Position numbers and translations under genes: made by a program
The notes under the pieces: model-generated
What the model was told of the DNA's origin: nothing
The model's input: the letters and a program-made list of their open reading frames with translations, nothing else
Databases searched by the model: none
In this document: in pieces, positions 8,231 through 20,788 of the stretch
How positions within the stretch are numbered: the first letter of the stretch is position 1
How the letters are laid out: each line of letters starts with the position of its first letter
Origin: a virus
Direction: 5' to 3' (one strand)
DNA: 22,636 nt
IMG/VR virus record: IMGVR_UViG_3300024518_001033
Span: 1-22,636 of that record

Positions 8231-8383
8231 ATGTTTCATATAACCACGTTAATTTTTATGACATTCTGGACTGGCGCCGATGAACCATCTGCCGGCGGCA
8301 GGGTCATGTCGAGTCTTGCATCCAGTGGTGGACTAGCCCATAAGGGTGGAATAGCAGGTAAGGGCGGTGGGTTAGCAGGATGA
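8231..8383 (+). CDS. Small Gly-rich protein (50 aa)
   Basis: The ATG at 8231 has GGGA directly upstream and the stop overlaps the start of the next gene (ATGATG at 8380). The 50-aa product has a hydrophobic N-terminus (MFHITTLIFMTFWTGA) and then a Gly/Ser-rich tail (SSGGLAHKGGIAGKGGGLAG). Short Gly-rich tail-fibre neighbours are common in phages, but this one is not assigned to a family. The hydrophobic start could be a membrane segment. Confidence 0.5.
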   Translation: MFHITTLIFMTFWTGADEPSAGGRVMSSLASSGGLAHKGGIAGKGGGLAG

Positions 8384-10338
8384 TGGACTACACAATAGAT
8401 GACGTAATCAATATACCGTTTACGACGCGAGCATTTGCCACCGGCGTACCAACAGTATTAACCGGCGCACAAACAGTAGAGATATACGAAGACGCCAGCA
8501 TTACCCCAATTGTGGAGGGGGCCAGTAAACTTGTTCTGACCATCGACCTGAATAGTATAGTTGGCTTCAATATGGCTACCGCAACCCTTTCAGCGGCAAA
8601 CGGGTTTGAGGTTGGCAAGCATTACACGCTAATCATCAAGACGGGTACGGTAGGTGGAGTTTCGGTAGTTGGTGAGGTAGTTGGTGAGTTTACTGTCGGA
8701 TTCCATGCCGCAACCGTTGACCTGGCTAACGCTACTGATGGACTTGGCGCGCTATCTACTGACATTGGAACGGCTCAAGCTGACCTCAATACAATCACTG
8801 GAACTGCCGGTGTTCTCATAGGTACAGATGCAGCTAACGTCACTGAAATCTCTGATGCTGTCTGGGATGAAGCCACAAGCGCTCATGCTATAGCGGGTAG
8901 TTTTGGTAAGTCTGCCGCTGATGTTCTGGTGGACACCGCTGACATCCAACCCAACTACGCAACTGAGGCGAAACAGGACACCGCACAGACAGACTTGAAC
9001 ACAATCACCGGAACAGCGGGCGTTCTCATAGGCACAGATGCGGCCAACGTGACAGAGATTAGTGATGCGGTTTGGGACGAGGTATTAACGGGTGGAAACC
9101 ATAATATCGCCACCTCCGCTGGTCGCAGACTCAGAGCACTGAACGACTTCGGGCAGTATGAAGGTGGAGCCGTTTGGTATGACGATGTAAACGGAGCGGC
9201 AGGAGCGACTGACTTTGAAAACGGCACCGTCAACAATCCGTGTTCGGCGGAAGCTGATGTAGTTACCCTGCTGGCGAGCCTGGGATTGACCACGGTCCAT
9301 TGCGCACCGGGCAGCACCTATGTTATGGCGTCCACCTATAATAATAATGTTTTCGAGGGTGAAAACTGGACACTACAACTGGCGAGTCAGGATGTTGCCG
9401 GAACAGTCATTATAGGCGCGGCGGTATCTGGTATTGCGACTGGCGTCGGCACAACTCAGCAGTTCAAAGGTTGCATCATGGGTGCGACCTCGATAATCAA
9501 GGGTACTCACTACATAAATTGCGGGTTTAGTGGTACGCAGACGCTAACCGAGGCTGGTGATATATTTTTCGACCAGTGTCACTCCGCTGTAGCGGGTACA
9601 GGCAGTGTTACCTTCGACTTTGGTGCAGCCCTTAATTCCTCAAATCTGAACGTAAGACACCATTCAGGCGGATGGACTATAGCCAATATGGGCGCGGGTA
9701 CAGGAACCTATAGCGCGTCATTTGAGGGCGATGGGCAGATAGTGTGGGCGGCATCGTGTAGTGCCACAAGTAACGCAAGCATACGTGGTAACTGGAAGAT
9801 AACCGATAATGCTAGTGGAGCCGTAACAGAGACTCTGGACGATAACCAAGTTGGTGTTGACCAGATTGGAACCGCTGGTGCTGGATTGACCAATCTCGGT
9901 GGAAGTAGCAACGACTGGAATACGGTAGTTCCTGACGCTGCTGGTGTTGCGCCAACTGCTGCCGAGGTTGTAAACGAGTGGGAGACTCAATCTCAGGCAG
10001 ACCCAACGGGATTCCATGTCAACGTATTGGAGGTTAGCGGTACAGCCGAAGACCTACCGACCGCAACGGCATTAGCGGTTGTGGATGCCAATGTTGATAC
10101 GATGGTTGCAGGGCTTGTGACTGGTGCATTTGAAGGAACTCCCACTACTACGGTTATGCAGACCAACCTGGCCGAGGCGACAGATGATCATTACAACGGT
10201 GCTGTGCTTATCATCACATCAGGCAACGGACTAGACCAAAGAACAGATATTACTGATTATGCGGGTGCAACCGGAACGCTGACTGTAACAGCGGTGGCAA
10301 CTGCTCCGGTGGCAACGGATACATTCAAGATAGTCTGA
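8380..10338 (+). CDS. Tail-fibre-like protein with duplicated module and beta-helix region (652 aa)
   Basis: ATG at 8380 overlaps the upstream stop. Residues 1-110 form an Ig-like N-terminal domain of the kind in phage baseplate or fibre attachment proteins (INIPFTTRAFATGVPTVLTG). Two near-identical 33-aa modules with an Asp-Leu-Asn-Thr-Ile-Thr-Gly core follow at residues 132-164 and 202-234. The middle (about 260-480) is a repetitive, Gly/Asn-rich stretch resembling a right-handed beta-helix, as in receptor-binding fibres. The C-terminus (TGTLTVTAVATAPVATDTFK) is typical of fibre or structural proteins. It is the largest gene in the tail-type block and probably a receptor-binding component. 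Confidence 0.65.
   Translation: MMDYTIDDVINIPFTTRAFATGVPTVLTGAQTVEIYEDASITPIVEGASKLVLTIDLNSIVGFNMATATLSAANGFEVGKHYTLIIKTGTVGGVSVVGEVVGEFTVGFHAATVDLANATDGLGALSTDIGTAQADLNTITGTAGVLIGTDAANVTEISDAVWDEATSAHAIAGSFGKSAADVLVDTADIQPNYATEAKQDTAQTDLNTITGTAGVLIGTDAANVTEISDAVWDEVLTGGNHNIATSAGRRLRALNDFGQYEGGAVWYDDVNGAAGATDFENGTVNNPCSAEADVVTLLASLGLTTVHCAPGSTYVMASTYNNNVFEGENWTLQLASQDVAGTVIIGAAVSGIATGVGTTQQFKGCIMGATSIIKGTHYINCGFSGTQTLTEAGDIFFDQCHSAVAGTGSVTFDFGAALNSSNLNVRHHSGGWTIANMGAGTGTYSASFEGDGQIVWAASCSATSNASIRGNWKITDNASGAVTETLDDNQVGVDQIGTAGAGLTNLGGSSNDWNTVVPDAAGVAPTAAEVVNEWETQSQADPTGFHVNVLEVSGTAEDLPTATALAVVDANVDTMVAGLVTGAFEGTPTTTVMQTNLAEATDDHYNGAVLIITSGNGLDQRTDITDYAGATGTLTVTAVATAPVATDTFKIV
8773..8871 (+). 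repeat. First copy of a 99-bp coding repeat
   Basis: It encodes a 33-aa module (starting AQADLNTITG, ending AVWDE) that recurs at 8983-9081 with one amino-acid change. I count 24 base differences between the two copies, nearly all at synonymous positions. This is therefore a protein-level repeat maintained by selection rather than a recent DNA duplication. Confidence 0.95.
8983..9081 (+). repeat. Second copy of the 99-bp coding repeat
   Basis: It encodes the same 33-aa module starting AQTDLNTITG and ending AVWDE, 210 bases downstream of the first copy (70-residue period). Only Ala to Thr at module position 3 differs at protein level, while synonymous positions differ at most codons. The sequences between the two copies also share TDIGTA/EAKQDT-like flanks. 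Confidence 0.95.
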
Positions 10339-10339
10339 C

Positions 10340-11194
10340 ATGGCATATTTAGATGCTGTATCAAGGATGGGGCTAGAAGGTAGTCCCGCCCGTCAATACG
10401 CAGGCTTTGCTGCAGCAGCATCAGCGGCAATCACAGGCGGTATAACCGAGGCACAAGCGGTTGCTGGTGGTGAAACCTTTACAGCAGAATTGACCGCTGA
10501 CACGTATCTCGCTGCGGGAACAGGTCCAATAGGGTCCATAGCTAATACTCAAGCCCTTATTGATGGGATTGTGAGCGCACAGGGCGAGGCGGCAGGATGG
10601 AATGCTGTGAGGTCAAGTATTGCCGTAACTGACATCACACGAACATCCGACACAGTAGCCACATTGACCCTGCCGGCCCTTGCTTACTCGATAACCGCTG
10701 ACGAAACACTGACCTGGACGATCCCGGCAGAGGCGGTGGCGGGCTCTGACGCTATTGTTGGTGCTCCGACGATCACCATTACGAACGCTGCTGAAGCAGT
10801 GCCGGAGGTTACGGGTGGTGGATGGGCAGCACTCAACTGGTACGACGGATACCGACAGAAAAAGCGTAGAAGGGAGAAAAGGCGAGATGAAATCCTTGAG
10901 GAAATCGAGGAAATCAGGGATGAGACAGACGCTGAAATAGCCCAACTACTGCATAAACAGATTGAGGTCGATGCCAGGGAGACTGAATTAGCTGAACTCG
11001 AGGCTATGGTCCAGTCGAGCTATACCAGAAAACAGGCTGAAAAGGCCGCTGAATACAACCAAAAGGTAGCAAAGGCATATGTAAGGGCAGCAGCACAGGC
11101 TAGTTTCTCTGCTGTTGAGGCATTTGAACGTGAGATGGAACAACTGCGCGAGGAAGAAGAGTTCCTGTTCCTGGCAATAGCACTACTGCAATGA
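10340..11194 (+). CDS. Ig-like domain plus long coiled-coil structural protein (284 aa)
   Basis: The start is two bases after the fibre gene stop. Residues 1-160 include an Ala/Gly-rich leader and an Ig-like beta domain (VATLTLPALAYSITADETL then TWTIPAEAV and PTITITNAA) of a kind frequent in phage structural proteins. After GGGWAALNWYDGYRQ the remainder is one long charged coiled coil (EILEEIEEIRDETDAEIAQL through FEREMEQLREEEEF). This head-plus-stalk layout suits a fibre or tail accessory. Its stop overlaps the start of the sulfotransferase-like gene (ATGA). Confidence 0.6.
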   Translation: MAYLDAVSRMGLEGSPARQYAGFAAAASAAITGGITEAQAVAGGETFTAELTADTYLAAGTGPIGSIANTQALIDGIVSAQGEAAGWNAVRSSIAVTDITRTSDTVATLTLPALAYSITADETLTWTIPAEAVAGSDAIVGAPTITITNAAEAVPEVTGGGWAALNWYDGYRQKKRRREKRRDEILEEIEEIRDETDAEIAQLLHKQIEVDARETELAELEAMVQSSYTRKQAEKAAEYNQKVAKAYVRAAAQASFSAVEAFEREMEQLREEEEFLFLAIALLQ

Positions 11195-11604
11195 TCATAT
11201 CCGTACCACATTCAGGCACTCGTTCGCTCAGAGAGCATCTTAAGGTTGATGGTTACTGGCACTGGGGACTAAATGACACAGACATAAATTCATTCACAGG
11301 TCATGCCGACATACCCATACGAAACCCTGTAGATATAGCACGGTCATGGGATGCCAGATATCCCACTGAAGAACATAAGGGCGCTGATAATATGCTGCAG
11401 CGCATGGACAGTATGATGGCATTCATTAACGACCACCCGGACCATAAGCTATGGCGATGTGAAGACCTGACAACCAATATCGGCAAGGGACCAGACAAAA
11501 CAAATGAACCAACAGAACGAACAGAGGCGCTGAAATTATGGCTGTCTGGTGCTAATATGGCATTCTATGAACAGCACTATCCTGACCTACAGAGGCAAAT
11601 CTAA
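11191..11604 (+). CDS. Small sulfotransferase-like protein (137 aa)
   Basis: Residues 1-13 (MIISVPHSGTRSL) carry a beta strand followed by a P-x-S-G-T loop, the 5'-phosphosulfate-binding loop of sulfotransferases. IRNPVDIARSW at 43-53 matches the 3'-phosphate-binding motif (Arg44 and Ser52). These enzymes transfer sulfate from PAPS to sugars or proteins. The length, 137 aa, is well below normal sulfotransferases (about 250 aa), and the usual Lys of the first loop is replaced by His7. A minimal or divergent enzyme, or a binding-only protein, is possible. It sits among virion genes with overlapping starts, suggesting a role in decorating the particle or a host glycan. Confidence 0.55.
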   Translation: MIISVPHSGTRSLREHLKVDGYWHWGLNDTDINSFTGHADIPIRNPVDIARSWDARYPTEEHKGADNMLQRMDSMMAFINDHPDHKLWRCEDLTTNIGKGPDKTNEPTERTEALKLWLSGANMAFYEQHYPDLQRQI

Positions 11605-12318: not shown

Positions 12319-13647
12319 GTGCGTGGCAGAACCCTCAACACCAAGACAGCCAGGGTGTTTGTGCCATTATTGGAGCCGGCCAGATACAAGGGCGCTCATG
12401 GTGGCAGGGGAAGTGGCAAGTCACATTTCTTTGCTGAACGATTGGTAGTCGATAGTTGCAATGAACCTGGAGACAATGCCGGCGAAGGACTCAGGTCTGT
12501 CTGTATTCGTGAGGTACAAAAGGATTTAGCCCAGTCAGCCAAACTGCTTATCGAGCAGAAGATGTCGAAACTCGGTGTTGGTGAGAGTGATGGGTTCAAG
12601 ATATTTCGTGACCACATCCAGACTCCAGGTGATGGGATAATCATCTTCAAGGGCATGAACGATTACACCGCTGACTCCATAAAGAGCCTGGAGAATTTTA
12701 AGAGGGGTTGGTGGGAGGAATCACAAACCGCGACATCCCACAGTTTGAAGCTGTACAGGCCCACATTCCGGGCAGATGGTTCGGAGCGTTGGTTCTCATG
12801 GAATCCACGCAGAAAGACTGACCCTGTTGATATGTTGCTGCGCGGTCCTGAAAAACCTACTGGTGCTGTGGTCATTGAATCGAACTGGAACAACAACCCA
12901 TTCAAGCCGGCAGAGCAGGAACAAGAGCGTAAAGACACACTGAGAACCGATCCTGACCAATATCCTCATATTTGGGACGGTCACTATGTAAGTCTCATTG
13001 AGGGAGCCTATTACGGGAAGTGCTTAACCGAGGCACGGCAGGCCAATCGTATTGGCAATGTTGCTGCTGACCCATTGATGACTTATCACGCATTCTTCGA
13101 TATTGGTGGAACAGGTGCCAAGGCTGATGCTGTGGCTATATGGATAGCGCAGTTCATCGGTAAGGAAATACGAGCACTGAACTACTACGAGGCAGTCAGC
13201 CAGCCACTTGCAACACACCTGACATGGATGCGTGAGGAAGGATACAAGCCTGGAAACACCAAGATATGGCTACCGCACGATGGAACCCAGGGCGACAAGG
13301 TGTTCGATGTTAGCTATGAATCTGCTATACGTGCCGCACAGTACGAGGTTGAGGTAGTTCCGAACCAGGGCAAGGGCGCGGCTAAGATGCGGGTTGAGTC
13401 AGGCCGGCGATACTTCCCAAGCATCTGGTTCAATGAGGCTACGACATCTGGTGGTGTTGATGCTTTGGGTTGGTATCACGAGAAGAAGGACGAGAACAGA
13501 GACATAGGATTAGGCCCAGAACACGACTGGTCGAGTCATGGTTCAGATGCCTTCGGCTTGATGTGTGTGGCTGCAGAGCAGATAATGACCGGAACGTCAA
13601 TTATAGACAACCCATACAAGGGGTTTGAAAGTGGATACGCAGCATAA
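12319..13647 (+). CDS. Terminase large subunit (442 aa)
   Basis: GTG start immediately after the small subunit stop. Walker A GGRGSGKS at residues 28-35 and WWEES with Glu133/Glu134 as Walker B form the packaging ATPase. The C-terminal nuclease has likely metal-binding Asp261 (in FDIGGTGAKADA), Asp321 (LPHDGT) and Asp410 (HGSDAF). This is the Terminase_3-type ATPase-nuclease of headful-packaging phages, at a usual length for that group. It cuts concatemeric DNA and pumps it into the prohead through the portal. TAA overlaps the portal ATG by one base. Confidence 0.9.
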   Translation: MRGRTLNTKTARVFVPLLEPARYKGAHGGRGSGKSHFFAERLVVDSCNEPGDNAGEGLRSVCIREVQKDLAQSAKLLIEQKMSKLGVGESDGFKIFRDHIQTPGDGIIIFKGMNDYTADSIKSLENFKRGWWEESQTATSHSLKLYRPTFRADGSERWFSWNPRRKTDPVDMLLRGPEKPTGAVVIESNWNNNPFKPAEQEQERKDTLRTDPDQYPHIWDGHYVSLIEGAYYGKCLTEARQANRIGNVAADPLMTYHAFFDIGGTGAKADAVAIWIAQFIGKEIRALNYYEAVSQPLATHLTWMREEGYKPGNTKIWLPHDGTQGDKVFDVSYESAIRAAQYEVEVVPNQGKGAAKMRVESGRRYFPSIWFNEATTSGGVDALGWYHEKKDENRDIGLGPEHDWSSHGSDAFGLMCVAAEQIMTGTSIIDNPYKGFESGYAA

Positions 13648-15971
13648 TGGCTGACATGAGAAAGACGGCAAACAAGGACCTGCTGGTTAAAATACGTGGC
13701 AGGTACACCATCATGTTCGATGCAGACCATGAGAACCGATTGCAGGGCATGCAGGACCTGAAGTTTGCCCTCATTCCTGGTTGGCAGTGGGAAGACAACA
13801 TGAAGCAGGAGCGTGGTCTACGTCCCTGTTATGAGTTCAACAAATTAAGACCCTACGGCAAGCGCATCATCAACGAGATGAGAGCTAACAGGCCACAGGG
13901 TAAAGTCCGTGCTGTTGAGGGCGGCGATGTTGAAACCGCTGAAATCAATGAGGGACTTGTCAGGAATATCTGGAATGTATCCGATGGCGATACGATCATT
14001 GACTACGCTGCTGAGTATCAAATTAACGCAGGGTATGGTGCATGGCGTGTTGATACTGAATATGCCGATGACAGCATGTTCGAGCAGGACATCTGCATCA
14101 AGTCGATTGAGAACCCGTTTTGTTTGTACTGGGACCCATCAGCAAAGGACTCGTTAAAGCGTGATGCTGAAGACTGGATACTGACTGAAAAAGTATCACA
14201 CAGGGCATTCGAGGCTAAGTACGGCACAAAGGCCCAAAAGAGTAACTTCGAAGATGCGCTCGAGTTTGATGATGATGAGGACTGGCAAGACGATGACACG
14301 GTGCGTGTTGGTGAATATTGGTACAAACAACCTTACAAGAAAGAACTCTGGAAAGTACAGATGGATGATGATGTACTGGTGGTTGATTCCGAATCGGATG
14401 AAGCGCGGGGCATTCCAAAGAAGGCAATCATTGACCGTCGTGAGGTAATGACCAACAAGATTATGTGGTGTGTTGTCTCTGGCAGTGCAATCCTCGAAGG
14501 TCCATCTGAATGGGCTGGCAGCCACTTTCCGTTCGTGGTGGTGTTCGGTGATTACGTTGTTATTGATGGCAGACCGTACTGGTGGGGCTTGCCACGCTTT
14601 GCAAAAGATGCGCAACGCTCATACAACATCAGTCGTACAGCCATTGAGGAAACCATAGCTCAAGCACCCAAGTCGGTATTCTGGGCAACACCAGACCAAG
14701 CTAAGGGATTGACAGATCAGTGGGCAACAGCACACAAGAAGAACCTGCCATACATGCTCTATAACCCTGATGTGAAGGCGCCCGGACCACCAGCACGAAT
14801 GGGTGGTGCTGATATTCCCATTGCACTTATGCAGCAAGCAGCGATTGACTCTGAAGACTTGAAGGAGGTCATTGGACTACCTGATGCCTCGATGGGTCGC
14901 AGTGGTGATGAGAAGTCAGGACGGGCTATTTACGCAAGACAACAGCAGGGACAGATAGCAACCTTCAACTTTCCTGATAACCAGGCAAAGGGCATTGGCA
15001 GGACATTTGAAATCATCATTGACCTGATTCCTGAGGTTTATGATACAGAACGGGAACTGCGTGTACTGGGTTCTGATGGTTCTGAAAGCTATGTTGAAGT
15101 GAACAAGGTGGTGTTCGATCCTGTTGAAAACCGGGCTGTACGTGTGAACGATTTGGCACAGGGCAAGTATGACTATGTGATTACATCAGGTCCGAGTTTC
15201 AGCACATTACGACAAGAGGCGGCAGAAACTTACATGTCACTCACACAAGGTATGCCTGAACTGATGGGTGTTGCCGGCGACTTGATTATGAAGTCAATGG
15301 ACTTGCCTTATGCTGAAGACATTGCCGACAGGTTGAAGACACTGCTGCCACCACATATCCAGCAGATGATTGACAAGGACCAGGATATCCCGCCAGAAGT
15401 GCAGCAAATGATGCAGCAGGCAGAGCAAGCTATGGCCCAGGTGCAGGAATTTGGGTCATTGGTTCAAGCAGCGGCTCAAGAACTTGAAGAAGAGAAGTCT
15501 GTCAGTGAGCAGAAGAAGGCAGAGATTCGTACAGAACTTGCCCAACTTAAGCAGGCAGAGGCTGAGTTCAATGCTCGAATAGCGCAGGAAATGTCCAAAC
15601 TTGTGAAAGAAGGCGCCAACCTGACGCAGAAAGAGGCCAATCTTGTGGTCAAGGGTGCCGAGGTCAAAGAGGCATCTGTTGCTGCTGGTGTATCGCTCGA
15701 GCAGCGTGAGACAGGTGCAATGGAGCTATCTGTCAAGGTTGATGACGTCCTTTCGCAGTTTATGACACAGGCAGACCAGGCTATTGGTGTGATGCGGCAA
15801 CAGGCTGATGATGCTGACATTAAGATTAACCGCAAGGTGATTGGCGGAAAAACCTCTCGTGAGGGTGGTAGACTCACCGCAGAGGTAGAATTTGATGATG
15901 GCAGCATGAAGAGTATCAGTGCTGTCAGAGACAAAGGTGATTTAAGAATAGTTCCTGACTCCGAGGAATAA
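13647..15971 (+). CDS. P22-type portal protein (774 aa)
   Basis: The ATG overlaps the terminase stop. The N-terminal region (FEFNKLRPYGKRIINEMRAN-like stretch around residues 66-87, then ENPFCLYWDPSAK about 155-167) is the P22 portal pattern. A central part (WGLPRFAKDAQRSYNIS) follows. The last ~250 residues are a long helical, Gln/Glu-rich coiled coil (QQMMQQAEQAMAQVQEF onward), as in the barrel of the P22 portal. At 774 aa it is slightly longer than P22 gp1 (725 aa). It forms the dodecameric ring at one capsid vertex, through which DNA enters and leaves, and docks gp4. Confidence 0.85.
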   Translation: MADMRKTANKDLLVKIRGRYTIMFDADHENRLQGMQDLKFALIPGWQWEDNMKQERGLRPCYEFNKLRPYGKRIINEMRANRPQGKVRAVEGGDVETAEINEGLVRNIWNVSDGDTIIDYAAEYQINAGYGAWRVDTEYADDSMFEQDICIKSIENPFCLYWDPSAKDSLKRDAEDWILTEKVSHRAFEAKYGTKAQKSNFEDALEFDDDEDWQDDDTVRVGEYWYKQPYKKELWKVQMDDDVLVVDSESDEARGIPKKAIIDRREVMTNKIMWCVVSGSAILEGPSEWAGSHFPFVVVFGDYVVIDGRPYWWGLPRFAKDAQRSYNISRTAIEETIAQAPKSVFWATPDQAKGLTDQWATAHKKNLPYMLYNPDVKAPGPPARMGGADIPIALMQQAAIDSEDLKEVIGLPDASMGRSGDEKSGRAIYARQQQGQIATFNFPDNQAKGIGRTFEIIIDLIPEVYDTERELRVLGSDGSESYVEVNKVVFDPVENRAVRVNDLAQGKYDYVITSGPSFSTLRQEAAETYMSLTQGMPELMGVAGDLIMKSMDLPYAEDIADRLKTLLPPHIQQMIDKDQDIPPEVQQMMQQAEQAMAQVQEFGSLVQAAAQELEEEKSVSEQKKAEIRTELAQLKQAEAEFNARIAQEMSKLVKEGANLTQKEANLVVKGAEVKEASVAAGVSLEQRETGAMELSVKVDDVLSQFMTQADQAIGVMRQQADDADIKINRKVIGGKTSREGGRLTAEVEFDDGSMKSISAVRDKGDLRIVPDSEE

Positions 15972-16020: not shown

Positions 16021-16890
16021 ATGGCAGAGGTAGATGAAGGGTATGTAGCAACAGACCCGAATTTTGGTGCAGACGCGAGTTCGGAAACGGCTGATGAACC
16101 TGTAGAGGTGGATGCCAAAGCAGCAGAGGCAGAACCGGAACCGGAAAGCGAAGGTGACTCACCACCACCCGACGAGCAAAACGTCGAGGAAAAAAGCGAT
16201 ACGTTTCAAAAGCGTATAGATAAGCTGACTGGAAGTTTCAGGGAATCTGAAAGAGAGGGTGATGCACTACGGCAGGAGGGGTTGGCTAAGGATAAGCGAA
16301 TAGCTGAACTGGAACAGCAAGCCGAGCCGCAGCAACAAGCAAAAACCCTTGCAGACTTTGAATATGATGAAGACAAGTACCGGGCCTATGTGTTTGATGA
16401 GGCGCGTTCAATTGCTGAGAAAGCAGCAAAGCGTGTGCTACAGGAACAGCAAACGGCAGTCCGGGTTGATGAAGTCACAGAGAAGTTTGCACAAAGAGAG
16501 AAAGACTTTGCCAAAACTGTTGATGACTATCTTGAGGTAACTCGAGACAAGAGTCTTAAAATCAGCGAATCGATGGCAGGGGAAATACGTAATCTCGACA
16601 TAGGTCCACAAATGGCCTATCACCTGGCTAACAACCCGGATGAGTCAAGACGTATATCCAAACTGTCAGACCGTGAAGTTGTGCGGGAAATGCAGTTGCT
16701 TGAGACAACTATGCGTTCCGAGATGGCAAAGGCAAGCAAGAAGGTCAGTGATGCACCGCCGCCGCCGGCAAAGATTCAGGGAAGGGAACCCGGAATGAAG
16801 ACGGCGACTACCGATCCACGTTCGGACAAGATGTCGGACAAGGAATGGTTCGCAGCGGAAGACAAAAGAAATGCAAAACTGAGAGGTTAG
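16021..16890 (+). CDS. Scaffolding protein (289 aa)
   Basis: An acidic, Glu/Pro-rich N-terminus (AEAEPEPESEGDSPPPDEQN) is followed by a long helical region. This includes FQKRIDKLTGSFRESEREG, KDKRIAELEQQAEPQQQA and the charged KAAKRVLQEQQTAVRVDEV. The C-terminus (KMSDKEWFAAEDKRNAKLRG) is basic, as in scaffolding proteins that contact the coat. Length (289 aa) matches P22 gp8 (303 aa). Position directly between portal and coat fits. Scaffolds drive prohead assembly and exit before DNA packaging. Confidence 0.75.
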   Translation: MAEVDEGYVATDPNFGADASSETADEPVEVDAKAAEAEPEPESEGDSPPPDEQNVEEKSDTFQKRIDKLTGSFRESEREGDALRQEGLAKDKRIAELEQQAEPQQQAKTLADFEYDEDKYRAYVFDEARSIAEKAAKRVLQEQQTAVRVDEVTEKFAQREKDFAKTVDDYLEVTRDKSLKISESMAGEIRNLDIGPQMAYHLANNPDESRRISKLSDREVVREMQLLETTMRSEMAKASKKVSDAPPPPAKIQGREPGMKTATTDPRSDKMSDKEWFAAEDKRNAKLRG

Positions 16891-16893
16891 CCA

Positions 16894-18162
16894 ATGGCTA
16901 GTACTACAATTCTCACGCCAACCATGATTACTCGGAAGGCATTGGACGTTCTGCACCAGAAGTTGAATTTTGTTGGTAACGTCAATCGCCAGTACGATGA
17001 TCGGTTTGCTGAGACAGGTGCCAAGATCGGAACCAGTCTTAATATTCGGATGCCTCCGAAGTACGTCGTTAAGACCGGTGCCAGTATCTCGCACCAGGAC
17101 CACACTGAAAGGTCAACTCCGTTGACGGTCAGCAGTCAGTACCATGTAGACGTTTCGTTTACTACGGTCGAACTGACGATGGACCTGGATGACTTTTCTG
17201 ACCGTGTGATTGACCCGGCAATGGCTCAGTTGGCCGCGAAGATTGAGGGTGATGCTTTTGCTGTCGCCTACAAACTCGTGAACAACTACACCAATGCCAG
17301 TACCGACGCTTTGATGACTTACAAGGCTTTCCAGCAGGGTGGTGCGAACATCACCAACCAACTGGGACCACTGTCACAGCGTTGTGCTTGTCTATCTCCT
17401 GACTCACAGGTTGAATTTAATGATGCCGTTAAGGGTCTTTTTCAATCCCAGGAGAACATTCGCAAGCAATACCGTGAAGGTATGATGGGTCGTACGGGTG
17501 GTTTCGATGTGTATGAAAATACACTTGTTCCAAGTCACACCACGGGTTCATTTGCTGGTTCTGCGCTTACAAACGGCACAGCATTGGGAACGGCAACGAC
17601 TACTGCAAACACCTGGGTATCCCAGACCGACCTGTCAGTTGATGGTGCTACATCGACCACCAACCTGACTGCCGGTGACATTATTACAATGTCCGGTGTT
17701 TACGATGTCCACCCCGAGACCAAGACCACTCGTGGAAAACTCAAATCGTTCGTTGTTCAGACTGCGGTCACGCTTACGACTGCTGCAACGGCATACACAG
17801 TAACGGTCAAACCCGGATTCATTTATGGGTCTGGAAACGCTTACCAGAACTGTGCATTGAGTGGTGTTTCTGATACGGACGGACTGACCTGTACCCTGAT
17901 TGGTGCAGTGTCCAGTGGCTTCGGTCAGGACTTGCAATTCCACAAGGATGCGTTCGTGTTCGCGACTGCTGACCTTGAGGATGTATCACGTTATGGTGCC
18001 TGGGGTGCTCGCGCCCAGAAAGACGGCATCAGTATGCGTGTAGCAAGGCAGTACACGATTGCGGATGATTCTGTTCCGTGTCGTATTGATGTGTTGTGGG
18101 GATTTGCGGGTTTGTACCCGGAACTCGCCAATCGGCACATGTATGAATTGGACCTGCTCTGA
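16894..18162 (+). CDS. P22-type major coat protein (422 aa)
   Basis: The start follows the scaffold stop by three bases, with GAGAGG in the scaffold end as the ribosome binding site. The N-terminus ASTTILTPTMITRKALDVLH and the ensuing LNFVGNVNRQYDDRF, then KIGTSLNIRMPPKYVVK, are characteristic of the P22 coat family. An inserted domain is present in the middle (the Thr/Ala-rich stretch around residues 220-330), consistent with the telokin-like I-domain site. The C-terminus FAGLYPELANRHMYELDLL matches the family. Length 422 aa against 430 for P22 gp5. Forms the icosahedral shell. Confidence 0.9.
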   Translation: MASTTILTPTMITRKALDVLHQKLNFVGNVNRQYDDRFAETGAKIGTSLNIRMPPKYVVKTGASISHQDHTERSTPLTVSSQYHVDVSFTTVELTMDLDDFSDRVIDPAMAQLAAKIEGDAFAVAYKLVNNYTNASTDALMTYKAFQQGGANITNQLGPLSQRCACLSPDSQVEFNDAVKGLFQSQENIRKQYREGMMGRTGGFDVYENTLVPSHTTGSFAGSALTNGTALGTATTTANTWVSQTDLSVDGATSTTNLTAGDIITMSGVYDVHPETKTTRGKLKSFVVQTAVTLTTAATAYTVTVKPGFIYGSGNAYQNCALSGVSDTDGLTCTLIGAVSSGFGQDLQFHKDAFVFATADLEDVSRYGAWGARAQKDGISMRVARQYTIADDSVPCRIDVLWGFAGLYPELANRHMYELDLL

Positions 18163-18172
18163 GGTTGATTCT

Positions 18173-18203
18173 GGGGGGCCTCTTCGGGGGTCCCCTTTTT
18201 TTT
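18173..18203 (+). terminator. Strong intrinsic terminator with UUCG loop
   Basis: GGGG (18173-18176) pairs with CCCC (18192-18195) and an inner CCTC/GGGG arm closes a UUCG tetraloop at 18183-18186, with one bulge. Eight T residues follow at 18196-18203. It lies 10 bases after the coat stop. A strong terminator just after coat isolates the next genes from the highly transcribed capsid block unless readthrough or antitermination occurs. Confidence 0.9.
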
Positions 18204-18213
18204 GGAAGGTTGC

Positions 18214-18999
18214 ATGAAAAAGAAAGACAAGAAGGAAATCCCCCACGTTTACGTAGCTACGCCCGCTTATGATGGCAAGGTCGATTGTGATTTTGCCTCA
18301 TCACTGGCTAATGCTGCGTTCGGTTGTGCTGTACTTGGTGTGAGAATGACGGCAGCAACGATGGGCAACAGTTGCTTTATTGACCTGTCACGCAACATGT
18401 TCGTGAGGATATTCCTTGAAGAACACAAAGACTGTACGCACCTGTTCTTTGTTGACAGTGACCTGAAGTTCGAAACACGGGCACTGCCTGAACTGGTACG
18501 AAACTGCACCCCGGAACGTCCTGTTGTTGCTGGTGCTTATAGGCGCAGGAATGCAGATGTTGAAGACTATCCTATCGTGTGGTCGCCACATCCTGAAATG
18601 AAGGGTGAGAACGGTGAGGATACTTTGTGGCTCGATGAGGATGATTGGCTACAGGCAGACAGGGTTGCTACTGGTTTTCTGTGTATACGCCGCGAGATTC
18701 TTGAGGAAATGGCAGCAGATGCCCAAAAGGTGGTGGTGCAGAACCAGGCGCCTATTCCACGATTGTTCTATACCTACATTGACGATGAGGGCCGCTTTGT
18801 TGGTGAGGACTTTGCATGGTGTACAGACTACGTAAAACGCTATAACAAGAAAATCAGCGTGTGGACTGACTTTGACTTTGAGCACGGCAAATTGCCTTGT
18901 AACTATGCCAAGTGGCTACGTCGTGAGGTTGAGAAATTCAAATGGAACCGGGAGAACCCGGAACCGAAATTAGGGCAAAAGCGCAGGGGTGTGGCGTAA
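18214..18999 (+). CDS. GT-A-fold glycosyltransferase-like protein (261 aa)
   Basis: ATG at 18214 with GGAAGG four bases upstream. The N-terminus HVYVATPAYDGKVDCDF (nucleotide-sugar-binding strand VATP) and SRNMFVRIFLEE near residue 59 lead to FFVDSDLKF, a DxD motif (Asp81, Asp83) of GT-A glycosyltransferases. GEDFAWCTDY (residues 197-206) matches the acidic active-site segment, and VATGFLCIRREIL precedes it. The activity would be transfer of a sugar from an activated donor to an unknown acceptor. It is the first gene after the terminator, and its stop overlaps the methyltransferase start. Confidence 0.7.
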   Translation: MKKKDKKEIPHVYVATPAYDGKVDCDFASSLANAAFGCAVLGVRMTAATMGNSCFIDLSRNMFVRIFLEEHKDCTHLFFVDSDLKFETRALPELVRNCTPERPVVAGAYRRRNADVEDYPIVWSPHPEMKGENGEDTLWLDEDDWLQADRVATGFLCIRREILEEMAADAQKVVVQNQAPIPRLFYTYIDDEGRFVGEDFAWCTDYVKRYNKKISVWTDFDFEHGKLPCNYAKWLRREVEKFKWNRENPEPKLGQKRRGVA

Positions 19000-19508
19000 T
19001 GGAATTATTGATTGGGTGCGGAAACCAACGCAAGAAACAGGTCACTATTCCCGATATACCAAAGCAGTGGACTGAGCTTGTGACGTTGGATATTGATGAA
19101 TCATGCAATCCAACCTACTGCCATGACCTGACCAACCTGCCGCTACCGTTCGATGACAATATGTTCGATGAAATACATGCCTATGAGGTTCTCGAGCATA
19201 CCGGTGCGCAGGGTGACTGGAAATTCTTCTTTAACCAGTTCTACGAGTTCTGGCGCATATTAAAGCCCGGTGGTTATTTGATTGGCACGAGTCCAATGTG
19301 GGATTCAATGTGGGCATGGGGTGATCCTGGTCATACACGAATAATCAGTTCAGGTTCTCTGGTGTTCCTGTCGCAGAAAGAATACACCGCACAGGTTGGT
19401 AAGAATGCGATGACAGACTATCGTGCCTACTGGGAGGGTGATTTTGACCTGGTTGGCAAGGAGGAATCAGAGGAAACGTTCGGGTTTGTGCTGCAAGCAG
19501 TGAAGTGA
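18999..19508 (+). CDS. Class I SAM-dependent methyltransferase (169 aa)
   Basis: The ATG shares one base with the upstream stop. The N-terminal MELLIGCGNQ (residues 1-10) is motif I of the SAM-binding fold, with Asp31/Asp33 in TLDIDES as motif II. DLTNLPLPFDDNMFDEIHA (residues 43-61) and EVLEH (63-67) are motif III/IV of Methyltransf_11-type enzymes, followed by WRILKPGGYLIGTSPMWD. Small-molecule or sugar methylation is the usual activity of this subfamily when it sits with glycosyltransferases. Shorter than average because the region before motif I is absent. Stop overlaps the GTG of the radical SAM gene. Confidence 0.75.
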   Translation: MELLIGCGNQRKKQVTIPDIPKQWTELVTLDIDESCNPTYCHDLTNLPLPFDDNMFDEIHAYEVLEHTGAQGDWKFFFNQFYEFWRILKPGGYLIGTSPMWDSMWAWGDPGHTRIISSGSLVFLSQKEYTAQVGKNAMTDYRAYWEGDFDLVGKEESEETFGFVLQAVK

Positions 19509-20371
19509 CTGACTTTTTTGATGAGTTGGAAAAGACATCGTCGGCAGAGGATTACTTCGATGAAATGCGCCGCAACTACATGCACCAACCCAACGAGATA
19601 AGCCTTGAGACATTCTCGTATTGCAATGCAAGCTGTACCTTTTGTCCTTATCCTGTTCTCGAGCGCAAGGGCGATAGAATGCCTGATGAACTCATTGACC
19701 GTGTTATTGGTGAGATGTCTGAGTTCCAGGTGCCGTTCTACTTCTCGCCATTCAAGGTAAACGAACCACTGCTTGACACAAGGCTTGAGAGTATTTGCCA
19801 GCGTGTTGATGCCCAGACTATTGCCAGTACCCGGATATTCACCAATGGGGCCGCACTAACGCAGCGTCATATCGACTGGATTGGTTCATTGAGCCGACTA
19901 CAGCATCTGTGGATCTCGTTGAACTATCACGACCAGGATGAGTATCAGCGGGTTATGGGGATACCGTTCGAGAAGACAGCAAAACGGCTTGATAACCTGC
20001 ACGGGCAGGGGTTTCCGTATGAGGTGGTGTTGAGTACTGTTGGCTTTCCAAATGAGGTCTTCAGGAATTACTGCTTTGACCGTTGGCCTGAATTTACCTC
20101 GGTTGCAATACAAAAGTCTGAATGGTTGGGGTACACTGACTCACAGGTCGATACTGTGCCGGTCACGCCGTGCTCGAGGTGGTTTGATTTATCGGTCATG
20201 TCTTCTGGCGTAGTGTCATTGTGCTGTATGGATGGTGAGGGGCAGTTCCCATTGGGAGATATCACCAGGCAGACACTTTTAGAGGTGTATAATTCACCAA
20301 ACTGGCGACGAAGGAGGGAGCAGATGTTAAGCCGGCAGGCTTATCCTGCTTGTGAAGTCTGCACATACTAG
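19505..20371 (+). CDS. Radical SAM/SPASM-domain enzyme (288 aa)
   Basis: GTG start overlapping the methyltransferase stop. Cys40-x3-Cys44-x2-Cys47 (SYCNASCTFCPYP) is the radical SAM 4Fe-4S motif, preceded by ISLETFS. The C-terminal part has Cys223 (PCSRWFDLSV), Cys240-Cys241 (SLCCMDG), GDITRQTLLEVYNSPNWRRRR and terminal Cys283-x2-Cys286, the layout of a SPASM/Twitch auxiliary cluster domain. Length is short for SPASM enzymes but complete at both ends. It would start a SAM-radical reaction on a peptide or carbohydrate substrate. Its substrate is not shown. Lies just before the gp4-like gene. Confidence 0.8.
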   Translation: MTDFFDELEKTSSAEDYFDEMRRNYMHQPNEISLETFSYCNASCTFCPYPVLERKGDRMPDELIDRVIGEMSEFQVPFYFSPFKVNEPLLDTRLESICQRVDAQTIASTRIFTNGAALTQRHIDWIGSLSRLQHLWISLNYHDQDEYQRVMGIPFEKTAKRLDNLHGQGFPYEVVLSTVGFPNEVFRNYCFDRWPEFTSVAIQKSEWLGYTDSQVDTVPVTPCSRWFDLSVMSSGVVSLCCMDGEGQFPLGDITRQTLLEVYNSPNWRRRREQMLSRQAYPACEVCTY

Positions 20372-20788
20372 ATGTCAATCACAAATTTAGAGGTTATTGA
20401 TGATGCGTTAAAGGGTCTCAATGTCATATCCGAGGTCGCAACTGCATCAGCAGAACAAGGCAAGTACGTACTGACAAAGCTCAACCAGATGATGGAAATG
20501 TGGCGTGAAGACGGCATTTCTGTTGGCTTTTTTCCCCAGTCTGCGACCACAGAGACTTGTCCAGTCCCCGACTATGCTGAACTTGCTGTCATTTCATCCC
20601 TGTCCGTTGTGATTGCGCCCAAGTACGGTGCGTCATTATCACCGGAACTGGTAGCGATTATCGACAGGAGCTATACGGCCCTGTTGAGAAAGTCTTTGTC
20701 AGAGAAACTGGACAATACCGATATGTCACACCTGCCTATTGGTCAGGGTCATTTTGGCACCCGTTACGACATTACGACTGATAACTAA
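20372..20788 (+). CDS. P22 gp4-like tail accessory factor (138 aa)
   Basis: The ATG directly follows the radical SAM stop. The helical pattern DDALKGLNVISEVATASAEQ, then YVLTKLNQMMEMWREDGISVGFFP (M-M-x-x-W-x-x-D-G), and later ELAVISSLSVVIAPKYGASL (A-P-x-Y-G) matches the gp4-like tail accessory or head-completion family (P22 gp4, 166 aa). It lines the portal and forms the first ring of the tail machine after packaging. Slightly shorter than P22 gp4. Its stop overlaps the next ATG. Confidence 0.7.
   Translation: MSITNLEVIDDALKGLNVISEVATASAEQGKYVLTKLNQMMEMWREDGISVGFFPQSATTETCPVPDYAELAVISSLSVVIAPKYGASLSPELVAIIDRSYTALLRKSLSEKLDNTDMSHLPIGQGHFGTRYDITTDN

Follow-up and report, generated by a model that had tools for sequence, protein, structure and literature searches.

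The window, by which we mean the whole stretch of 22,636 bases analysed here from an IMG/VR virus record, carries a P22-type virion operon in which the TerL-portal-scaffold-coat-gp4 order of P22-like phages can be traced by Pfam and PHROG matches, and in which three enzyme genes lie between coat and gp4. The relevant features are as follows.

12319-13647, TerL
13647-15971, portal, P22 family (Pfam)
16021-16890, scaffold
16894-18162, plus strand, P22-type coat gene (PF11651, E 1.4e-35), directly followed on its 3' side by the glycosyltransferase gene in most relatives
18173-18203, plus strand, terminator-like hairpin and U8 tract after coat, with a 9-bp stem and a UUCG loop
18204-18209, plus strand, SD-like GGAAGG, 4 nt 5' of the glycosyltransferase start codon, seen in the sequence
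18214-18999, plus strand, GT-A glycosyltransferase (GT), 261 aa, ATG start (phrog_1574, E 3e-18)
18999-19508, plus strand, class I SAM-dependent methyltransferase (MT), 169 aa (PF08241, above cut-off)
19505-20371, plus strand, radical-SAM/twitch enzyme (rSAM), 288 aa, BtrN-like (PF04055 and PF13186, above cut-off)
20372-20788, plus strand, P22 gp4-type head-tail adaptor, the right-hand boundary of the cassette (PF11650, E 1.1e-5; phrog_637, E 1.3e-16)

The GT and MT genes overlap by 1 nt (TAATG) and those of MT and rSAM by 4 nt (GTGA), while gp4 begins at 20372, immediately after the TAG stop codon of rSAM, and the three overlapping genes that an earlier note on this DNA had placed between coat and gp4 hold in both coordinates and overlaps. 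The arrangement exceeds chance, since it recurs in dozens of diverged contigs. Rfam and tRNA searches gave no match. Elsewhere in the window, a small ORF at 11191-11604 starting MIISVPHSGTRSLREHL has by eye a likeness to the sulfotransferase P-loop and could be another decoration enzyme, and it has no Pfam, PHROG or NCBIfam match; a long ORF with an internal repeat (DLNTITGTAGVLIGTDAANVTEISDAVWDE) at 8380-10338 is perhaps a tail fibre, and a short tandem repeat at 9-291 gives reading frames of the MRQGMRHGMRH and MECGMECG type.

The stem and cUUCGg loop of the hairpin occupy 18173-18195 and the U8 tract runs to 18203, leaving 10 nt to the ATG of GT, and the strong UUCG terminator that had been described ten bases before the glycosyltransferase start is in this respect confirmed. 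A post-coat hairpin with a T-rich tail (dG at most -12, at most 90 nt from the coat stop) is likewise found in 66 of 83 non-redundant relatives, against 5-10 of 83 in dinucleotide-shuffled sequence and 6 of 86 windows taken at random. Reading it as a terminator is fair, but with a looser cut a hairpin also follows coat in several named P22-like phages that have no cassette, and we can conclude that the coat 3' end commonly has such a hairpin, which belongs to the coat gene and not to the cassette. It is plausible that it acts as a post-coat attenuator reducing downstream output. Transcription from a promoter inside coat and transcription by readthrough are indistinguishable, since a promoter scan gave no excess over shuffled sequences.

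The first enzyme of the cassette belongs to a PHROG family of 'unknown function', and searches of Pfam, NCBIfam and PDB sequences gave no usable match for it. Its model is confidently of the GT-A fold (AF2 pLDDT 92) and its top structural matches are GT-A enzymes, the best in the PDB being STIV A197 (2c0n; Z 17.4, rmsd 2.4 over 164 residues, 19% identity), followed by entries of the collagen glycosyltransferase LH3 at Z about 15.5 and, further down the list, by domain 1, a GT domain, of PBCV-1 A064R (2p72); in the GT profile search of PDB sequences A197 is not matched at E at most 1. The DxD metal site, the ED catalytic motif and the C-terminal His are all present, and in alignment columns over all relatives, with rows not dereplicated, R60, D81, D83, E198 and D199 are found in 145 of 145 and H224 in 144 (the exception being a gap), a conservation that within the GT scan is partly by construction since the scan demands GT motifs. 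A GT-A enzyme with a DSD motif had been proposed, and of this the GT-A assignment stands, whereas DSD is just one form of DxD, the relatives showing DSD, DAD or DGD. The fold similarity leaves the donor and acceptor of GT unfixed.

The second enzyme is a Methyltransf_11 protein (E 8e-7) with motif I and the acidic residue expected of a class I SAM methyltransferase, its Pfam family being matched at E at most 0.01 by 43 of 44 MT members. Its conserved residues are G6xG8, D31, E66-H67, P99 and H112, and E66-H67, P99 and H112 occur in 177 of 177 aligned rows (not dereplicated). No PDB match was obtained at 1e-3 and no MT was found in GenBank phages. One relative (L004, 4206-5254) has two tandem paralogous MTs in its cassette, the second being 51% identical to the MT of the window.

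The third enzyme matches both Radical_SAM (9e-12) and SPASM (8e-10), and its nearest PDB entry by sequence is BtrN (4e-14). BtrN is furthermore the best fold match of the model (pLDDT 82; Z 18.2, rmsd 2.9 over 224), followed by peptide enzymes and DesII at Z 14.9 or below. The cysteines C40, C44 and C47 occur in 88 of 88 ungapped rows, with two further rows gapped, and C223, G235, C240, C283 and C286 in 90 of 90 (rows again not dereplicated), while among distinct sequences the CX3CX2C motif is found in 47 of 48 and a C-terminal CX9-15GX4C-gap-CX2C, indicative of one auxiliary cluster, in 48 of 48. Since the C-terminus fits this latter pattern, which is the definition of the twitch motif (PMC6231123), and then stops, 2 residues past the final cysteine in the protein of the window and at most 6 past it in relatives, the enzyme is a twitch and not a full SPASM protein. 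The seven-cysteine SPASM pattern with CX5CX3C after CX2C was considered and rejected, PF13186 covering just the shared half, so that of the radical SAM/SPASM enzyme claimed earlier the radical SAM part is retained and the SPASM part is not. The notion that the enzyme classes are visible in the sequence is otherwise borne out, for MT and rSAM by Pfam and for GT by its predicted fold. The one rSAM sequence without CX3CX2C lies in a broken-looking locus (L118; L118/L263), where the portal frame is in pieces, a matter of sequencing error or decay. In two other contigs, which end nearby, rSAM is found 5' of scaffold (L025, 3-752) or after portal (L130, 3727-4347) instead of after MT. Distant viral relatives of rSAM adjoin Glycos_transf_2 and methyltransferase genes, and bacterial relatives, mostly from Betaproteobacteria (L155-L164, L172) and 37-45% identical, lie outside phage head modules in neighbourhoods that are housekeeping and give no hint of sugar.

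The same gene order is found in three close relatives (L002, L003 and L004), with GT identities of 95, 84 and 80%, respectively. A GT-profile scan gave 77 loci, and all scans pooled gave 86 GT-locus clusters at 90% identity, 54 of them with at least 2.6 kb downstream. Among these 54 non-redundant loci coat lies upstream in nearly all, MT follows GT in 51, rSAM is present in about 29 and three consist of coat-GT-gp4 only; homologous cassettes, which the earlier note had proposed searching for in P22-like relatives, do indeed recur. Searches seeded with rSAM or MT are free of the motif bias of the GT scan. The former gave 43 rSAM clusters at 300 bits or above in the pooled set, and in the 27 with at least 2 kb on both sides MT lies within about 3 kb in every case and GT in 24, the remaining three having GT about 5 kb further on in the same head module. 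MT-seeded searches mostly returned the neighbourhood already seen in the GT scan, and outside P22-like phages GT is in the locus in 11 of 17 full contexts against 5 of 74 background loci, which were collected for the similarity of their coats and lie outside the cassette clade (Fisher p 8e-7, indicative only because the two sets have loci of different lengths). Scattering of the three genes as singles and a lack of conserved catalytic residues across homologues had been set beforehand as observations that would speak against a joint system, and neither was seen; together with the conservation of the GT DxD/ED residues and rSAM cysteines across homologues, the linkage seen across searches supports the idea that the three enzymes act jointly.

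Selection on the cassette genes is purifying, dN/dS being at most 0.09 where measurable: against close relatives, and counting unsaturated synonymous sites only, it is 0.054 for GT, 0.032-0.086 for MT and 0.087-0.090 for rSAM, with 0.02-0.05 for coat. Distances correlate between MT and rSAM (Mantel r 0.75), GT and MT (0.54), GT and coat (0.63) and coat and gp4 (0.36), and that GT tracks coat better than gp4 does is suggestive only, because gp4 is more diverged. The distribution is nested, in that some loci have GT alone, GT+MT is common and GT+MT+rSAM accounts for about half, whereas a strong rSAM is never found without MT in full contexts; GT and MT are the core of the system and rSAM an optional addition.

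A coat-seeded scan shows the cassette to be a trait of one P22-like clade, since GT is present in six of six loci whose coat is at least 59% identical to the query, while most loci with coats at 38-51% identity have no GT and a few distant loci carry just a GT in this position. The cassette is dispensable, as other P22-like phages do without it, and indeed Xanthomonas phage PBR31, Pseudomonas phage PAE2 and Rhodoferax phage P26218 have similar coats and no cassette. Among named environmental genomes, MW202573 has, in the interval that separates coat from the tail adaptor, an MT and a GT that carries the annotation 'A197', and MW202691 has a GT before gp4. The gp4 protein of cassette-bearing phages has about 135 aa, that of most P22-like relatives without the cassette about 237 aa. 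Furthermore, the three families recur together, in other orders, in unrelated head modules: TerL-rSAM-MT-portal-scaffold-major head protein-HNH-GT (L129), TerL-GT-portal-protease-MT in a module of the HK97 type (L233), head-tail adaptor-x-MT-rSAM-GT (L107) and MT-rSAM-x-GT (L143).

On balance we favor, with some confidence, the interpretation that the cassette is a modular, head-associated system for virion glycosylation, the acceptor being a head protein, most likely coat, and the sugar being O-methylated and then, in about half of the lineages, radical-modified. A cytoplasmic GT-A enzyme made late, with coat, would use a host nucleotide-sugar as donor and transfer its sugar to the head protein, MT would then O-methylate the transferred sugar, and where present the BtrN-like rSAM would oxidise a secondary alcohol or invert a carbon of the sugar, the outcome being a particle whose outer face bears an unusual glycan that can be diversified. 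The nested distribution suits such stepwise tailoring, in which the sugar is attached, methylated and then oxidised or epimerised. The donor is probably the host's, since a search of 14 records for a nucleotide-sugar pyrophosphorylase gave none. Coat is preferred as the acceptor because the GT gene follows coat and because in unrelated phages, too, the enzymes are encoded within head modules, but the co-location could also reflect convenient insertion behind coat, and we infer the acceptor as well as the identity of the sugar, the order in which the enzymes act and any advantage gained in shielding, adsorption or stability. The more specific notion that the twitch enzyme oxidises or epimerises a sugar bound to coat, so that the capsid glycan of a tailed phage is edited by radical chemistry, is a tentative one and less probable than the general reading.

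Phage serotype-conversion systems are well known, and the enzymes might correspondingly act on the host envelope (O-antigen, capsule or lipid-linked sugar) and alter a receptor or confer superinfection immunity, a notion that also draws on the rSAM relatives lying with GT2 and MT genes in apparent glycan gene clusters. We regard this as unlikely, since no transmembrane segment was found in GT, MT or rSAM (maximum 19-residue hydropathy 1.38, 0.51 and 1.05, respectively), no flippase or polytopic GT adjoins the cassette, and the linkage to head genes, which is seen in several head types unrelated to one another, suits late virion assembly better than host conversion. Serotype conversion of the gtrABC type, with a membrane GT and a flippase, was considered as a candidate in its own right and rejected, no membrane segment having been found and the neighbours being coat and gp4.

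The earlier note had left room for a peptide as well as a sugar as the substrate of the trio, and of these the sugar is favored. That rSAM acts directly on a virion protein or small peptide in a RiPP-like manner, with GT and MT acting on the same residue, might be suggested by the peptide enzymes CteB, SuiB and EpeE being among the next fold and sequence matches after BtrN. BtrN is however 3.3 Z above the peptide enzymes, the distant viral relatives have the sugar-type neighbours mentioned above, no precursor-peptide gene was found in the cassette, where the overlapping genes leave no room for one, and rSAM is optional while GT+MT persist, all of which makes this explanation improbable. Hypermodification of the phage DNA, by base glycosylation and further tailoring, is slightly more doubtful still. 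Phage glycosyltransferases and radical-SAM enzymes do work in DNA hypermodification, and a site in the head module could suit modification linked to packaging; yet the thymidylate-synthase/hydroxymethylase homologue (PF00303) is absent from 14 records of 22-43 kb, which may be fragments, in a search with a positive control, and the GT fold matches listed are protein, polysaccharide and nucleotide-sugar enzymes and not DNA GTs. A search for TET/JBP (PF12851) was empty, with its controls silent too. Finally, varied genes occupy the coat/gp4 gap in other phages, but that the three are unrelated cargo in an insertion hotspot with no joint function is very improbable in view of their nested co-occurrence (rSAM with MT, MT with GT), their reappearance, differently ordered, in other head types and the strong purifying selection.

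If virion glycosylation is the right reading, a widespread, uncultured group of P22-like phages adorns its particles with a sugar tailored by enzymes, as do phages of several other head types, and phrog_1574 gains a testable role, coat and three soluble enzymes making a compact test of autonomous capsid glycosylation in tailed phages. If furthermore the glycan is radical-edited, rSAM would be, as far as the searched literature shows, the first enzyme of the radical-SAM class with an assigned role in tailoring a virion glycan, and would belong to a modular head-linked system common to several head types. Virus-encoded virion glycosylation is already known from a few other viruses, but its GT-MT-rSAM form behind coat has apparently not been described, and no paper on such a coat-linked cassette was found in the searched literature, whose coverage leaves out most subscription journals.

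Among known systems, BtrN, an aminocyclitol dehydrogenase of the butirosin pathway, shares with the phage rSAM the cysteine pattern of a single auxiliary cluster, whereas the phage enzyme is about 20% identical to it and encoded among head genes. The mycobacteriophages Che8 (gp110), Corndog (gp38) and Myrna encode GTs that glycosylate their capsid and tail proteins (Freeman 2023, as described in PMC12363180), and are, compared by description, alike in having phage-encoded GTs that act on virion proteins; the description of them in PMC12363180 has no mention of MT and rSAM genes grouped after a coat of the P22 type. The coat protein of STIV is glycosylated and A197 is regarded as a strong candidate for the enzyme responsible (PMC4187194), and this soluble viral GT-A protein with a DxD motif, the best structural match of the phage GT model, differs in that it is a putative GT of an archaeal virus. 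PBCV-1 A064R (GT-GT-MT), which assembles the terminal part of the major capsid protein's glycan and O-methylates it (PMC9614988), is a single multidomain protein acting on an N-glycan in a large eukaryotic virus without a radical-SAM enzyme, but with its virus-encoded GTs and class I MT working on a capsid glycan it is the closest working precedent for the cassette described here.
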